NCBI GenBank assembly: GCA_019116045.1
Contig: DXCK01000113.1
Location: forward strand, 1 to 64,000
Direction of reading: 5' to 3'
DNA: 64,000 nucleotides
Origin: Candidatus Bacteroides merdipullorum
Lineage (GTDB): Bacteria; Bacteroidota; Bacteroidia; Bacteroidales; Bacteroidaceae
Shown: piece after piece, positions 48,031-55,416 of the stretch
Layout: the number at the start of each line of letters is the position of its first letter
Numbering within the stretch: position 1 is the stretch's first letter
Position numbers and translations under genes: made by a program
Notes under the pieces: generated by a model
Databases searched by the model: none
Seen by the model: the letters and a program-made list of their open reading frames with translations, nothing else
Told to the model about the DNA's origin: nothing

Positions 48031-48105
48031 GGACGTTTAGCTCAGCTGGTTCAGAGCGTCTGCCTTACAAGCAGAGGGTCGGCGGTTCGAATCCGTCAAC
48101 GTCCA
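48031..48105 (+). tRNA. tRNA-Val(TAC), followed by encoded CCA
   Basis: GGACGTT...CTGCCTTACAAGCAG...GGTTCGAATCC...AACGTCCA cloverleaf. Confidence 0.95.
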
Positions 48106-48139: not shown

Positions 48140-48214
48140 GGACGTTTAGCTCAGCTGGTTCAGAGCGTCTGCCTTACAAGCAGAGGGTCGGCGGTTCGAA
48201 TCCGTCAACGTCCA
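48140..48214 (+). tRNA. tRNA-Val(TAC), second copy, followed by CTA
   Basis: Same tRNA sequence as 48031-48105. Confidence 0.95.
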
Positions 48215-48283: not shown

Positions 48284-49651
48284 TTATCCGAAGAGGCAGC
48301 GGAAGGCTTCTTCTACCTTGCGCACGGGTACCAGTTCTATCTTTATCTTTGCCGTATTCAGTCCTTGCAGGTTCTGCCGGGGCAGGATGAATTGGCGGAA
48401 ACCTAGCTTCTCTGCTTCGCCGATGCGCTGTTCTATGCGGTTTATGGGGCGGATTTCGCCTGATAGGCCCACTTCGCCAGCCATGCATACTTCAGCCTCG
48501 ATGGCGGCATCCATGTTGCTGCTCAGTATGGCACTGATGACTGCCAGGTCGATGGCCGGGTCGTTCACTTTCAATCCGCCGGCAATGTTCAGAAATACGT
48601 CCTTCTGTGCCAGTTTGAAGCCTACACGCTTTTCCAACACAGCCAGCAGCATGTTCATGCGTCGTGTGTCAAAGCCGGTGGCCGAGCGTTGCGGGTTGCC
48701 GTAGACTGCGCTGCTCACCAGTGCCTGCGTTTCGATGAGGAAGGGGCGTATGCCCTCGATGGCCGAAGCAATGGCCACGCCACTCATGCCCTCGTGATCC
48801 TGGCTGAGTAGGAGTTCCGACGGGTTGCTCACCTGGCGCAATCCATCCTGCCGCATTTCGTAGATGCCCAGTTCCGCTGTGCTGCCGAAGCGATTCTTGA
48901 TGCTACGTAAGATGCGGTACATGTAGTGTTGGTCACCCTCGAATTGCAGCACCGTGTCTACGATGTGCTCCAGCACTTTGGGACCGGCGATGCTCCCTTC
49001 TTTGTTGATATGCCCGATGAGGATGACGGGCGTGTGGCTCTCTTTGGCGAAGCGCAGAATGGAGGCGGCACATTCCCTTACCTGGGCAATGCTGCCCGGT
49101 GATGATTCCAGGCTTTCGGTCGATATGGTCTGTATGGAGTCGATAATGACCAGGTCGGGTTGCGTGTTCTTGATATGTACGAAGATTTGCTCCAGTGAAG
49201 TCTCGCAGGCAATGAGGCAATCGCTCGATGTGTGGGTTAGTCGGTCGGCACGCAACTTCAGCTGGCGGGCGCTTTCTTCGCCCGATATGTAGAGGATGCG
49301 CTTTTCGGGCATCCGCAGCACGGTTTGCAGGATAAGTGTGGACTTGCCAATGCCTGGTTCTCCGCCCAGCAGTACCAGCGAGCCGCGTACCAGCCCGCCG
49401 CCCAACACGCGGTTCAGTTCATCGTCGTGCATGTCGATGCGTGGTTCGTCATCGGCATTGATTTCGTTTAGTGTCACCGGCTTTGACTTTGTTTTGGCTA
49501 GTCCGGTCAATGAGGGGCGTGCCGCAGGCTCCTTGCGCACGATTTCTTCGACGAAGGTGTTCCATTGTCCGCACGAAGGACATTTGCCTTGCCACTTGGG
49601 CGATTCTTGCCCGCAGTTGCTGCATACATATACGGTCTTCTCTTTTGCCAT
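48284..49651 (-). CDS. radA: DNA repair protein RadA
   Basis: VCSNCGQESPKWQGKCPSCGQWNTF zinc motif; GGEPGIGKSTL Walker A; Lon-like C-terminus. Confidence 0.96.
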   Translation of the reverse strand: MAKEKTVYVCSNCGQESPKWQGKCPSCGQWNTFVEEIVRKEPAARPSLTGLAKTKSKPVTLNEINADDEPRIDMHDDELNRVLGGGLVRGSLVLLGGEPGIGKSTLILQTVLRMPEKRILYISGEESARQLKLRADRLTHTSSDCLIACETSLEQIFVHIKNTQPDLVIIDSIQTISTESLESSPGSIAQVRECAASILRFAKESHTPVILIGHINKEGSIAGPKVLEHIVDTVLQFEGDQHYMYRILRSIKNRFGSTAELGIYEMRQDGLRQVSNPSELLLSQDHEGMSGVAIASAIEGIRPFLIETQALVSSAVYGNPQRSATGFDTRRMNMLLAVLEKRVGFKLAQKDVFLNIAGGLKVNDPAIDLAVISAILSSNMDAAIEAEVCMAGEVGLSGEIRPINRIEQRIGEAEKLGFRQFILPRQNLQGLNTAKIKIELVPVRKVEEAFRCLFG

Positions 49652-49763
49652 TTCGTTGCTTATTTGTGGTCAAAGGTACGATTAATATGGGTAGTTTCCT
49701 CCATATTCTGCACTTTTATCGCAAAAAAGTGGGATGAAGTGATAGATTGTATGCTTTTATTGC

Positions 49764-49772
49764 TACATTTGC
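49764..49772 (+). promoter_or_regulatory. -7 box TACATTTGC for thr operon
   Basis: Matches TAnnTTTGC; 37 nt upstream of the leader ORF. The -33 element is not clear. Confidence 0.5.
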
Positions 49773-49808
49773 AACATCTTATTCATCAGAAACGATAGAA
49801 ACCAGGCT

Positions 49809-49868
49809 ATGGACAAGTATTATCCGCATACCGTCACATCAATGCGCACCATGACCCTTCGGGGTTAG
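49809..49868 (+). CDS. Candidate threonine-operon leader peptide MDKYYPHTVTSMRTMTLRG
   Basis: 19 codons, 4 Thr in the last 12; upstream of terminator-like hairpin and thrA. Confidence 0.5.
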   Translation: MDKYYPHTVTSMRTMTLRG

Positions 49869-49920
49869 GGATAGTATTTCGTGTTTCTACGTGTTACACA
49901 TTATTTTCGGTTTTTCCTTT

Positions 49921-49963
49921 CCTCCGTCTGCGGAGGCTGCCCGGCAGGAACGGGCTTTTTTCC
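49921..49963 (+). terminator. Two adjacent hairpins with U-tract upstream of thrA (putative attenuator)
   Basis: CCTCCG-TCTG-CGGAGG (49921-49936) and GCCCG-GCAGGAA-CGGGC-TTTTTT (49939-49961). Confidence 0.6.
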
Positions 49964-50006
49964 TACATATTATTTACATACAGTAACTTCATTAAAACAG
50001 CATAGG

Positions 50007-52445
50007 ATGAAAGTAATGAAATTCGGCGGAACGTCGGTAGGTTCCGTGGAGAGCATATTGAGTGTGAAACGCATTGTCGAGGCGGAAGCCGGTCGTGAAC
50101 CGGTCATCGTAGTGGTGTCGGCGCTTGGCGGCATTACGGACAAGTTGATAAAGACCTCGCGCATGGCGGCGGCAGGCGATGCGGCGTATGAGGACGAGTT
50201 CCGCGAAATCGTGAGCCGGCACGTGGAGATGGTGAAGCGGGTGATTCCAGAGTTTGACGCGCAGATGACCATGCAGCGCCGGGTGGGGGAGTTGCTCAAT
50301 GAACTGAAGGATATCTTCCAGGGCATCTATCTCATCAAAGACCTGTCGCAGAAGACGTCGGACACGATTGTGAGCTACGGCGAACGCCTTTCGTCCATCA
50401 TTGCCGCCCAACTGACGGGGGCGCGGTGGTATGACTCGCGCAGCTTCATCAAGACGGAGAAGAAGTTTTCGAAGCATGTGTTGGACACGGAGTTGACGAA
50501 CCGGCTGGTGCGCGAGACCTTCAGTGAACTGCCTCCGCTGGTGCTGGTGCCGGGCTTCATTGCCACAGACAAGGACACGGGTGAAGTGACCAACCTGGGT
50601 CGGGGCGGGTCGGACTACACGGCGGCAATCATCGCGGCGGCGCTGGATGCGGACAGCCTGGAGATTTGGACGGACGTGGACGGATTCATGACGGCCGACC
50701 CCAGGGTCATCTCTACGGCCTATACCATCAATGAACTGAGTTACGTGGAGGCGACGGAGTTGTGCAACTTCGGCGCGAAGGTGGTCTATCCGCCGACAAT
50801 CTATCCCGTGTGCCACAAGAACATACCTATCCTTATCAAAAACACCTTTAACCCGGCGGGAGCGGGAACGGTCATCAAGCAGACCGTGAGCAGTCCGCAG
50901 GGCAAAGCCATCAAGGGCATCTCATCCATCAACGATACGAGCCTCATCACGGTGCAGGGCCTGGGCATGGTGGGGGTGATTGGCGTGAACTACCGCATCT
51001 TCAAGGCTCTGGCGAAGAATGGCATCAGCGTCTTCCTGGTGTCGCAGGCGTCGTCGGAGAACTCTACGTCCATCGGTGTGCGCAATGCCGACGCTGACCT
51101 GGCGTGCAGTGTGCTGACGGAGGAGTTTGCCAAGGAGATTGAGATGGGCGAGATATCGCCCATGCAGGTGGAGCGCGACTTGGCCACGGTGGCCATCGTG
51201 GGCGAGAACATGAAGCATACGCCGGGCATCGCGGGCAAGCTGTTCGGCACGCTGGGGCGGAACGGCATCAACGTCATTGCCTGCGCACAGGGGGCGAGCG
51301 AGACCAATATTTCGTTTGTGGTGGACAGCAGGTATCTGCGCAAGTCGCTCAACGTCATCCACGACTCGTTCTTCCTGTCCGAATACCAGGTGCTGAACCT
51401 CTTCATCTGCGGCATCGGCACGGTGGGTGGCAAGCTCATCGAGCAGATTCGTAGCCAGCGGCAGCGGCTGATGCAGGAAAACGGCCTGCAACTGAACGTG
51501 GTGGGCATTGCCGACGCCTCGCGCTCGATGTTCAGCCGTGAGGGCTTCGATCTGTCACGTTTCCGCGAGGAGCTGAAGGAGAAGGGGCAGGAGAGCGACA
51601 CGCAGCGCCTGCGCGACGGCGTCATTGGCATGAACATATTCAACAGCGTCTTCGTCGACTGCACGGCCAGCCCCGACGTGGCGGGCATCTACGAGGAGTT
51701 GTTGCGGCACAACATCTCCGTCGTGGCGGCCAACAAGATTGCCGCATCCAGCGAGTACGAGAATTACCTCCGCCTGAAGCAGACGGCGCGTCAGCGGGGT
51801 GTGAAGTACCTGTTCGAGACCAACGTGGGTGCGGGCCTGCCCATCATCAACACCATCAACGACCTTATCCACAGCGGCGACAAGATTCTGAAGATTGAGG
51901 CCGTGCTGAGCGGCACGCTGAACTACATCTTCAACCAGCTCAGCGCCGACGTGCCTTTCAGCCAGACCATACGCATGGCGCAGCAGGAGCGCTACTCCGA
52001 GCCCGACCCGCGCATCGACCTCAGCGGCAAGGACGTCATCCGCAAGCTCGTCATCCTGGCGCGCGAGGCGGGCTACCGCATCGAGCAGGGCGACGTGGAG
52101 CGGCACCTCTTCGTGCCCGACGACTTCTTCGAGGGGTCGCTGGACGACTTCTGGCGCAAGGTGCCCTCGCTGGACGCCGACTTCGAGGCGCGCCGCCGGC
52201 GGCTGGAGGCCGAGCACAAGCACTGGCGCTTCGTGGCGCGGCTGGACGGCGGACGGGCGTCGGTGGGACTGATGGAGGTGGCCCCCGGGCATCCGTTCTA
52301 CGGGCTGGAGGGCAGCAACAACATCATCCTGCTGACCACCGAGCGCTACCGCGAGTACCCGATGATGATTCAGGGCTACGGCGCGGGAGCCGACGTGACC
52401 GCCGCGGGCGTCTTTGCCGACATCATGAGCATTGCCAATGTCTGA
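50007..52445 (+). CDS. thrA: Bifunctional aspartate kinase/homoserine dehydrogenase I
   Basis: MKVMKFGGTSVGSVE; ACT domains; GIGTVGGKLIEQI. Confidence 0.97.
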   Translation: MKVMKFGGTSVGSVESILSVKRIVEAEAGREPVIVVVSALGGITDKLIKTSRMAAAGDAAYEDEFREIVSRHVEMVKRVIPEFDAQMTMQRRVGELLNELKDIFQGIYLIKDLSQKTSDTIVSYGERLSSIIAAQLTGARWYDSRSFIKTEKKFSKHVLDTELTNRLVRETFSELPPLVLVPGFIATDKDTGEVTNLGRGGSDYTAAIIAAALDADSLEIWTDVDGFMTADPRVISTAYTINELSYVEATELCNFGAKVVYPPTIYPVCHKNIPILIKNTFNPAGAGTVIKQTVSSPQGKAIKGISSINDTSLITVQGLGMVGVIGVNYRIFKALAKNGISVFLVSQASSENSTSIGVRNADADLACSVLTEEFAKEIEMGEISPMQVERDLATVAIVGENMKHTPGIAGKLFGTLGRNGINVIACAQGASETNISFVVDSRYLRKSLNVIHDSFFLSEYQVLNLFICGIGTVGGKLIEQIRSQRQRLMQENGLQLNVVGIADASRSMFSREGFDLSRFREELKEKGQESDTQRLRDGVIGMNIFNSVFVDCTASPDVAGIYEELLRHNISVVAANKIAASSEYENYLRLKQTARQRGVKYLFETNVGAGLPIINTINDLIHSGDKILKIEAVLSGTLNYIFNQLSADVPFSQTIRMAQQERYSEPDPRIDLSGKDVIRKLVILAREAGYRIEQGDVERHLFVPDDFFEGSLDDFWRKVPSLDADFEARRRRLEAEHKHWRFVARLDGGRASVGLMEVAPGHPFYGLEGSNNIILLTTERYREYPMMIQGYGAGADVTAAGVFADIMSIANV

Positions 52446-52627: not shown

Positions 52628-53947
52628 ATGAAACACATTATTATATTAGGGGACGGCATGGCCGACCATCCCGTCCCCTCGCTGGGCGGGCGGACGCTGC
52701 TCCAGGACGCTCGTACCCCGTGGATGGATCTGCTGGCGCGCCTGGGGCGCAACGGGCGGCTCGTCACCGTCGCCCCCGGCTTCCACCCCGGCAGCGAAGT
52801 GGCCAACATGTCCGTGCTGGGCTATGACCTGCCCACCGTCTACGAAGGCCGCGGCCCGCTCGAGGCGGCCAGCATCGGCGTCGACCTCGCGCCCGGCGAC
52901 ATGGCCATGCGTTGCAACCTGGTCTGCCTCGAGGGCGACCTGCTGAAGAACCACTCCGCCGGGCACATCACCACGGAGGAGGCCGACACGCTCATCCGCT
53001 TCCTGCAAGAACGGCTGGGCGACGAGCGCGTCCACTTCTACACCGGCGTGCAATACCGCCACCTGCTGGTTATCCGCGGGGGCGAAAAGCGCCTGGACTG
53101 CACGCCGCCGCACGACGTGCCCCTGCAGCCCTGGCGGCCGCTGCTGCCTAAGGCAGCTACGAGCGAAGAGCTACAAGCGACGAGCTACAAGCTACGAGCT
53201 ACAAGTGGTGACGGAGATACGGACGGACTCGTAGCTCGTAGCTCGTCACTCGTAGCTAATACCCCGTCACTCACAGCTAAAGATACCGCCGACCTGCTCG
53301 ACACGCTCATCCTACGCTCGCAAGACCTGCTGCGCGACCATCCGCTGAACAAGCAACGCATCGCCCAAGGCAAAGACCCCGCCAACAGCATCTGGCCCTG
53401 GAGCCCCGGCTACCGTCCGCAGATGGAGCCCTTCTCCGCCCGCTTCCCCCAGGTGAGGAGCGGGGCGGTCATCACCGCCGTCGACCTCATCCGCGGCATC
53501 GGGCGCTATGCCGGACTGCGGCGCATCGACGTGCCCGGCGCCACCGGACTCTATGACACCGATTACGAGGGCAAGGTCCGCGCCGCTCTCGACGCCCTGC
53601 GCACCGACGACTTCGTCTACCTGCACATCGAGGCCAGCGATGAGGCCGGCCACGAGGGGGACATCGCCCTGAAACGCCGGACCATCGAAGACCTCGACCG
53701 CCGTGTCGTCGGCCCCGTCTACGAGGCTGTGAAGGATTGGCCCGAGCCCGTGGCCATCGCTGTCCTGCCCGACCATCCCACGCCCTGCGAGGTGCGCACC
53801 CACACGGCCGAGCCCGTGCCCTTCCTTGTCTGGCATCCCGGCATCGAGCCCGACGCCGTGCAGACCTTCGACGAGGTGGCCGCCTGCGAGGGTTCGTATG
53901 GCCTGCTGAAAGAAGACCAATTCATTAACACATTCATGAACGCTTAG
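52628..53947 (+). CDS. ApgM-type cofactor-independent phosphoglycerate mutase homolog, probable homoserine kinase substitute
   Basis: MKHIIILGDGMADHPVPSLGGRTLLQ; located between thrA and thrC. Confidence 0.9.
   Translation: MKHIIILGDGMADHPVPSLGGRTLLQDARTPWMDLLARLGRNGRLVTVAPGFHPGSEVANMSVLGYDLPTVYEGRGPLEAASIGVDLAPGDMAMRCNLVCLEGDLLKNHSAGHITTEEADTLIRFLQERLGDERVHFYTGVQYRHLLVIRGGEKRLDCTPPHDVPLQPWRPLLPKAATSEELQATSYKLRATSGDGDTDGLVARSSSLVANTPSLTAKDTADLLDTLILRSQDLLRDHPLNKQRIAQGKDPANSIWPWSPGYRPQMEPFSARFPQVRSGAVITAVDLIRGIGRYAGLRRIDVPGATGLYDTDYEGKVRAALDALRTDDFVYLHIEASDEAGHEGDIALKRRTIEDLDRRVVGPVYEAVKDWPEPVAIAVLPDHPTPCEVRTHTAEPVPFLVWHPGIEPDAVQTFDEVAACEGSYGLLKEDQFINTFMNA
53153..53278. repeat. In-frame heptameric palindromic repeat (18 x 7 bp) inside apgM
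   Basis: Left half (CGAGCTA CAAGCTA) heptads, right half CGTAGCT/CGTCACT heptads in the same phase; near-perfect 20-bp inverted arms 53179-53198/53228-53247. Confidence 0.88.
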
Positions 53948-53951
53948 ACTT

Positions 53952-55256
53952 ATGAACTATTACAGCACCAACCACCAGTCGCCCGCCGCCACCCTTCAGG
54001 AAGCCGTGGTGCGCGGACTCGCCCCCGACAAGGGCCTCTATATGCCGGAGCATATCCGTCCGCTCCCGCCCGAGTTCTACGAACAGATTGACCGCATGAC
54101 CCTGCCCGACATCGCCTGCCGCGTGGCCGACGCCTTCTTTGGCGACGACATCCCCAGCGATACGCTGCACGAACTGGTGCGCGACACGATGAGCTTCGAC
54201 ATACCGCTCGTGCCCGTCGCTGACCACATCCACGCGCTCGAGCTCTTCCACGGCCCCACGCTGGCCTTCAAAGACGTGGGCGCCCGCTTCATGGCCCGCC
54301 TGTTGGGCTACTTCATCCGCCGCGAGGGTGCGGGCGAGGTCAATGTCCTCGTGGCCACGTCGGGCGACACGGGCAGTGCCGTGGCCAACGGCTTCTTGGG
54401 CGTGGAGGGCATCCGCGTCTACGTGCTCTACCCCAAGGGCAAGGTCAGCGAGATACAGGAGAAGCAGTTCACCACCCTGGGCCGCAACATTACGGCCATC
54501 GAAGTGGACGGCACCTTCGACGATTGCCAGGCCTTGGTGAAGGACGCCTTCATGGATGCCGACCTCAACGCCCACATGCGCCTGACCAGTGCCAACAGCA
54601 TCAACGTGGCACGCTTCCTGCCGCAGTCGTTCTACTACTTCCATGCCTACGCCCAGTTGAAGCGCGCCGGTCGTGCCGACGGCGGGGTGGTGGTGTGCGT
54701 GCCCAGCGGCAACTTCGGCAACATCACCGCAGGGCTGTTTGCCGCCCGCATGGGCCTGCCCGTCAGCCGCTTCATTGCCGCCAACAACCGCAACGACATC
54801 TTCTATCAGTACCTGCGCACGGGTGTCTATTCGCCCCGTCCCAGCATCGCCACCATCGCCAACGCCATGGACGTGGGCGCGCCCAGCAATTTCGCCCGCA
54901 TCCTGGCCCTCTACGACGGTAGCCACGACGCCATCTCGGCCGACATCAGCGGTGCCACGTACACCGACGAGCAGATTGCCGACACCGTGCGCGCCACGTG
55001 GCAGCAGCACCGCTATCTGCTCGACCCGCACGGCGCCTGCGGCTACCGTGCTTTGCAGGAGGGGCTACGTCCCGGCGAGACGGGCATCTTTCTGGAGACC
55101 GCCCATCCGGCCAAGTTCAAGGACACGGTGGAGCGCATCATCGGGCAGCCCGTCGACATCCCCGCCAAGCTCCGCGCTTTCATGCAGGGCACCAAGCAGA
55201 GCGTGCCGATGCCGAAGGACTTCCCCGCCTTCAAGGCCTATCTGATGGGGCAGTGA
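53952..55256 (+). CDS. thrC: Threonine synthase
   Basis: HGPTLAFKDVGARFMARL; ATSGDTGSAVANGF. Confidence 0.97.
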   Translation: MNYYSTNHQSPAATLQEAVVRGLAPDKGLYMPEHIRPLPPEFYEQIDRMTLPDIACRVADAFFGDDIPSDTLHELVRDTMSFDIPLVPVADHIHALELFHGPTLAFKDVGARFMARLLGYFIRREGAGEVNVLVATSGDTGSAVANGFLGVEGIRVYVLYPKGKVSEIQEKQFTTLGRNITAIEVDGTFDDCQALVKDAFMDADLNAHMRLTSANSINVARFLPQSFYYFHAYAQLKRAGRADGGVVVCVPSGNFGNITAGLFAARMGLPVSRFIAANNRNDIFYQYLRTGVYSPRPSIATIANAMDVGAPSNFARILALYDGSHDAISADISGATYTDEQIADTVRATWQQHRYLLDPHGACGYRALQEGLRPGETGIFLETAHPAKFKDTVERIIGQPVDIPAKLRAFMQGTKQSVPMPKDFPAFKAYLMGQ

Positions 55257-55271
55257 TGGCGGATTTATTAC

Positions 55272-55384
55272 CCAGCAGGGGCGCAGGGTTACTATCCAGC
55301 AGGGGCGCAGGGTTACTACCCAGCGGGGGTGCAGGGTTACGCCCCAGCGGGGGTGCAGGGTTATGCCCCTGCGGGGGCGCTGGA
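55272..55384. repeat. Tandem 24-bp minisatellite, 4 full plus 1 partial copies
   Basis: Unit CCAGCAGGGGCGCAGGGTTACTAT; starts 55272, 55296, 55320, 55344, 55368. Confidence 0.92.
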
Positions 55385-55416
55385 TAAACGGAATCAATAG
55401 GAACCAATAAACAACA

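Follow-up and report, generated by a model that had tools for sequence, protein, structure and literature searches.

The window, by which we mean the whole stretch of 64,000 nucleotides analysed here, carries the thr operon thrA-apgM-thrC. Upstream of the operon lies a divergent radA gene (48284-49651, identified from sequence), and between the two is a leader region with several RNA elements. The genes and leader elements are as follows.

49764-49772, plus strand: promoter box TACATTTGC with a Bacteroides-type -7 element (TAnnTTTG, 49764-49771), read from the sequence.
49796-49802, plus strand: 5' arm of helix P1, UAGAAAC, which can pair with 49883-49889.
49809-49868, plus strand: leader ORF MDKYYPHTVTSMRTMTLRG and its stop codon; in 55/55 homologues an ORF ending in T(L/P)(R/W)G is found here.
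49818-49825, plus strand: 5' arm of helix P2, UAUUAUCC, equal to leader codons 4-6, pairing with 49869-49876.
49854-49865, plus strand: hairpin P4, ACCC-UUCG-GGGU, lying over the final Thr codon and the 3' end of the ORF.
49869-49876, plus strand: 3' arm of helix P2, GGAUAGUA, directly 3' of the stop codon and followed by AUUUC.
49881-49899, plus strand: possible hairpin P5, GUGU-N11-ACAC, weakly supported, which contains the core GUGUUUCUACGUG (49881-49893).
49921-49936, plus strand: hairpin H1, CCUCCG-UCUG-CGGAGG, read from the sequence.
49939-49961, plus strand: hairpin H2, GCCCG-GCAGGAA-CGGGC followed by six U (49956-49961), called terminator-like by program.
50007-52445, plus strand: thrA, bifunctional aspartate kinase/homoserine dehydrogenase I (NF006959, 1048 bits, cut-off 726).
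52628-53947, plus strand: apgM-like gene, a proposed homoserine kinase (TIGR02535, 553.6 bits, cut-off 446).
53952-55256, plus strand: thrC, threonine synthase (TIGR00260, 289.6 bits, cut-off 167).

The start codon of thrA is the ATG at 50007; a longer ORF that opens with the GTG at 49881 was rejected as its start, being an accident of the open frame. Within the apgM-like gene, at about 53150-53290, an insertion of about 45 residues (EELQATSYKLRATS...SSSLVANTPSLTAK) resembles a translated simple repeat and interrupts the family match, leaving two separate parts. Between thrC and the next gene, at 55250-55400, there are also short tandem repeats in frame (one reading gives SRGAGLL/PSGGAGL). Downstream of radA there are two adjacent tRNA genes of equal score (48031-48105 and 48140-48214). 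The promoter box is kept at the matching position in the leaders extracted by hand from aligned relatives, and transcription would start just 3' of it.

An earlier note on this DNA had described the promoter box, the leader ORF with its four Thr codons, the small hairpin that we name P4, and both downstream hairpins, and all of them are present at those positions. The Thr codons are at positions 8, 10, 14 and 16; the note had missed the conserved Met codons at positions 12 and 15. In DNA searches of relatives, conservation covers 49714-49899 and is far lower 3' of that. The consensus of 14 hand-extracted leaders reads M..YYPHTVTSM(C/R)TMTL(R/W)G before the stop. From three of these leaders we built a covariance model, R1, which matches in 43 of 301 Bacteroidaceae genomes, and altogether we collected 55 leaders in the family, 50 of them before thrA and 5, in genus g32, before apgM-thrC. 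The end of the peptide lies over the ACC-containing P4 hairpin in every one of the 55. Among 50 distinct leaders, Thr makes up 27.6% of residues in the leader frame, compared with 7.1% and 3.3% when the two alternative frames are read; for Met the figures are 10.9%, compared with 0.1% and 0.2%. The agreement of frame between P4 and the ATG (50/50) was discarded as evidence because the start codon had been picked in frame. Judged by these comparisons, the leader peptide is real, with conservation far beyond chance, and the ORF is presumably translated. In one homologue (L062, locus about 930-985) the usual stop after P4 is absent (GGGGUAGGG) and the leader frame continues through the core to 43 aa.

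The element is not found before every thrA in the family. In L006 (G005, about 1430-1495), thrA follows a promoter box and a short 5' region from which leader, P2, P4 and core are all missing, apparently because the entire attenuator has been deleted naturally; the element is therefore dispensable. L016 and L017 (G006, G008) have a more divergent thrA (MKVLKFGGSS) behind short 5' regions without the thr leader, which seems to have been lost, or never present, in that part of the Bacteroidaceae.

The long-range helix P2, also missed by the earlier note, joins leader codons 4-6 to the bases just past the stop, a pairing already suggested by single-sequence folds. In the model-fitted alignment, 93.6% of cells in P2 are paired and 6 of its 7 modelled pairs have changes on both sides; sliding the partners leaves at most 49% of cells paired for the whole structure. 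As such an alignment leans towards its model, we added an alignment-free cognate test, in which every 5' region is paired with the 3' region of its own leader and the duplex energy is set against that obtained with permuted partners. For P2 the energy is -9.76 against -8.55 (sd 0.29, 33 sequences; z = -4.2), with 0 of 20000 permutations as low, figures which, as in all our cognate tests, are not strict probabilities because the sequences are related. This version replaces one that clustered too harshly (10 sequences, p = 0.002). Examples of covarying P2 pairs are CAACUGC/GCAGUUG in L057, UAUAUAC/GUAUAUA in L060 and CAUUAUC/GAUAAUG in L065. P4 is found in 55/55 homologues with 98.8% of cells paired, and its opening three bases are always ACC, a Thr codon. 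For P1, 90% of cells are paired with changes on both sides in 1 of 7 pairs (model-fitted alignment), and the cognate test for P1 and P5 covariation is not significant or marginal; P1 appears to be conserved, and weakly supported as a helix.

We folded the window leader with a ribosome imposed at successive codons. A ribosome at Thr8 or Thr10 abolishes P2; one at codons 12-16 abolishes P4 and leaves P2 intact; after its release both helices form. H1 and H2 form at every ribosome position. Since P2 and P4 are lost in these folds while H1 and H2 are kept, the switch is placed in P2/P4, and the best reading of the alignments and folds is that the conserved switch is P2/P4, overlapping the leader ORF. 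The earlier note had proposed a different switch, in which CCGTCTGC (49924-49931) pairs with GCAGGAACGG (49944-49953) and disrupts H1 and H2. That pairing can form in the sequence. It lies wholly outside the leader ORF and would therefore be out of reach of a stalled ribosome, and at the DNA level the H1-H2 region is matched, briefly and weakly (E 8.5e-4), in only 1 of 4 close relatives. In the comparison of thrA leaders across the Bacteroidaceae that the note had suggested, the leader ORF and its last Thr codon are conserved (55/55) and the alternative downstream stems are not, the covarying helix being P2 instead.

The codons suggest what is sensed. An internal Met past the first four residues is present in 48 of the 50 thrA-led Bacteroidaceae leaders, and the other two (L066, L067) have a Met earlier in the peptide. 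In g32, thrA is found at another locus and has no leader there, and it is apgM-thrC that the leader precedes; these leaders (n=5) have 33% Thr and 15% Ile, and 0/5 have an internal Met. A leader before thrB-thrC in family f117 has a run of Thr and no internal Met. Outside the Bacteroidaceae, internal Met occurs in only about half of the thrA-led leaders. ThrA feeds both Thr and Met, while apgM-thrC serve Thr (and Ile) only. As Met codons are typical of thrA-led leaders and gone when thrA leaves the operon, the signal would be Thr plus Met rather than Thr alone. The loss of Met where thrA is absent comprises two independent cases (g32 and f117), which are few and go in the expected direction, and the sensor appears tuned to exactly what the operon makes. 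The Thr-sensing attenuation of the earlier note is thus upheld in its Thr codons and its stalling ribosome, and amended in its restriction to Thr, Met being equally characteristic of thrA-led leaders.

R1 has no match outside the Bacteroidaceae among 295 genomes of the order, and its extension to the whole order was dropped. Order-wide leaders were found instead by reading upstream of thrA and by a hairpin-pattern search; a looser class-wide pattern was dropped, its control matches being as many as the real ones. Upstream of thrA in other families we find short ORFs ending in TTTP(WG) over a lengthened P4, ACCCC-UUNG-GGGGU. Leaders of this simpler form were seen in about 13 families besides the Bacteroidaceae (f3, f11, f19, f23, f29, f30, f31, f60, f68, f96, f108, f109 and f117; less certainly in f11 and f23). 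Taking all families together, the leaders always stand upstream of thrA, apgM-thrC or thrB-thrC. Those outside the Bacteroidaceae too have a long-range stem, between the region of the ORF start and the bases just past P4 (cognate -9.80 against -8.23 permuted, p = 0.0014), and the sister genomes L120 and L121 differ in it by a compensatory change from A-U to G-C. In L079, L085, L091, L120 and L121 six or seven U directly follow this stem, and in this type the sole visible terminator overlaps the leader ORF. The claim of the earlier note that a leader peptide with regulatory Thr codons precedes the operon therefore stands on 55 homologues in the family and leaders in about 13 others, with in-frame Thr and a covarying helix.

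The same leaders bear on the possibility that the ORF encodes a small protein, or is a chance ORF, and that the RNA structure has a role apart from translation. P2 pairing dictates the YYP residues, and part of the peptide conservation is therefore due to RNA, as this explanation would have it. It would leave aside that, among unrelated peptides from many families, only a single frame is enriched in Thr (28%, compared with 2-7% for the other frames, across Bacteroidaceae and the 13 other families), that outside P4 the peptides are not conserved between families, and that codon content shifts with operon content; we consider it very improbable.

We conclude, with a probability of roughly 0.8, that the leader is a ribosome-mediated attenuator of the thr operon reading the supply of charged tRNA-Thr and tRNA-Met, a reading that rests on comparative sequence and modelled folds. 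The peptide would be translated while the RNA is being made. When Thr and Met are ample, the ribosome would complete the ORF and depart; P4 would then form at the end of the ORF and bring together the arms of P2, the early codons and the bases past the stop. P2/P4 followed by U-rich sequence, or else a terminator hairpin at a more distal site, would favour premature termination. Under a shortage of Thr or Met, the ribosome would wait at a Thr or Met codon between the 5' arm of P2 and P4, masking P2 at early codons or P4 at late ones, and transcription would continue into thrA-apgM-thrC. For stalling, for termination and for the direction of control we rely on the known behaviour of such leaders, and by that analogy the operon is very probably switched on by ribosome stalling when Thr or Met runs short. 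Against this explanation count the poor U-tract of the window, where the flank after P2 is only AUUUCGUGUUUC, the survival of P2 in late stalls, the scant covariation of P1 and P5, the leaderless thrA of L006, and the share of only about half with internal Met among thrA-led leaders outside the Bacteroidaceae.

The terminator may be either P2/P4 with a U-tract, as other families suggest, or a downstream hairpin. In most relatives a hairpin P6 (GCUUAC..GUAAGC) lies just 3' of the core, nearer to it than H2 is in the window. A build like that of trp would keep the same Thr/Met-sensing leader and depart from the explanation above solely in the terminator, with P2 (and P1) as pause or antiterminator and a separate hairpin, P6 in most Bacteroidaceae or H2 in the window, as terminator. 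The strong covariation of P6 (cognate z = -5 to -7) speaks for this build, as do terminator-like hairpins in 13 of 49 Bacteroidaceae intervals between P5 and thrA against 1.1 expected from shuffles (several being P6 itself), clear downstream hairpins with U-runs in the families of L103 and L130, and the motif GUUUCUA, common to P1 and P5, which makes these two mutually exclusive. P6 is, however, missing in the clade of the window and in g32, and where present its usual 3' flank is CAAAAC, not a U-run. In sister L002 hairpins like H1 and H2 are kept with a degraded U-run, and neither is conserved beyond the closest relatives; H2 may act as a local terminator in the window. We found no conserved pairing of P6 or H2 with the leader through which a ribosome might act, nor any conserved exclusive helix pair that includes a terminator among the Bacteroidaceae leaders. 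The persistence of H1 and H2 in the folds at any ribosome position also argues against this build, and several other families (e.g. L091) have no downstream hairpin at all. We give it somewhat less than an even chance.

The core GUGUUUCUACGUG is nearly invariant in the 55 homologues, and in a scan of 12 genomes its pattern matches essentially the thr leader alone, on which we rejected P5 as an element common to other operons. The core may be an RNA-polymerase pause signal, whose pattern (G-10, Y-1, G+1) it fits, and attenuation could instead depend on Rho or on pausing: a stalled ribosome would shield the RNA past the stop from Rho, and the pause would synchronise polymerase with ribosome. For this account speak the near invariance of the core in spite of the scant covariation of its hairpin, and the one base that varies towards its end, a U or C in the would-be -1 position; P2 would end about 12 nt upstream of the pause, the distance of known pause hairpins. 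The core is absent, however, from other families that keep the leader, and we regard this account as unlikely.

Taken across the order, these leaders might form an attenuator class of the Bacteroidales, not catalogued before, whose terminator stem surrounds the leader ORF, with the hairpin that encodes the last Thr codon as nucleation switch and with a sensed set (Thr plus Met or Thr plus Ile) that evolves with the gene content of the operon; we put this forward tentatively, with the odds slightly against it.

The Thr attenuator of enterobacteria uses Thr and Ile codons. The leader described here resembles it (RF00506, Thr_leader) in the function of its operon, in clustered Thr codons and in stem-loops that overlap the ORF. 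RF00506 has no match at gathering score, nor at E up to 10 over 49700-50050, so the leader is not a member by that test; no Rfam family matches the leader region, and the T-box riboswitch gives no match either. Unlike in RF00506, the second amino acid is Met in thrA-led leaders, with Ile-rich leaders only where thrA is outside the operon; the last Thr codon and the ORF end lie inside a hairpin; the covarying helix joins early ORF codons to bases right past the stop; and the hosts belong to another phylum. In L103, from another family of the order, the leader MKHQLHTIITITTTRPQTS upstream of thrA is followed by a classical terminator, GCGCCTTTC..GAAAGGCGC-TTTT; by its sequence, this is a conventional Thr/Ile attenuator. 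With the trp, his, ilv and leu attenuators the Bacteroidaceae leaders share control codons in a short ORF, helices overlapping that ORF and a biosynthetic operon downstream, but no conserved 2:3 antiterminator or canonical U-tract terminator is identifiable in them. As in E. coli pyrBI, the sole candidate terminator in some families (e.g. those of L091 and L121) overlaps the leader ORF, so that the ribosome would cover it, whereas the signal here would be amino-acid supply read through codons rather than UTP. What attenuators have in general is found here, namely a short upstream ORF rich in codons for the product and conserved helices that overlap it and depend on the ribosome in modelled folds.

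In the literature, Naville and Gautheret (PMC2965389) stated in 2010 that no leader peptides were known outside Proteobacteria and Actinobacteria before their Firmicutes case. The passages available from a B. thetaiotaomicron transcriptome (PMC7366714) treat leader-like sORFs in general, and those from a F. psychrophilum paper (PMC9723704) give strong clues for leader-peptide attenuation at amino-acid operons. Those candidates are, like ours, short ORFs in long 5' UTRs; the passages mention no leader for threonine and offer no structural comparison. We found no description of a Bacteroidales thr leader in the literature searched, an earlier prediction being possible: Lopatovskaya et al., in 2010 (Mol Biol 44), reportedly may have predicted Bacteroidetes cases.

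To our knowledge, little is known of how amino-acid synthesis is regulated in the Bacteroidales, a dominant order of the gut. The leader would be a cis-regulatory element at the branch point of Thr and Met, seen in the Bacteroidaceae and about 13 other families, and the leaders that have shed their Met codons in operons without thrA amount to a natural experiment. Scans with Rfam and for terminators miss such attenuators because these have no tidy terminator, and the combination of leader ORF, P2 and P4 may serve as a model for seeking further attenuators in the Bacteroidota.
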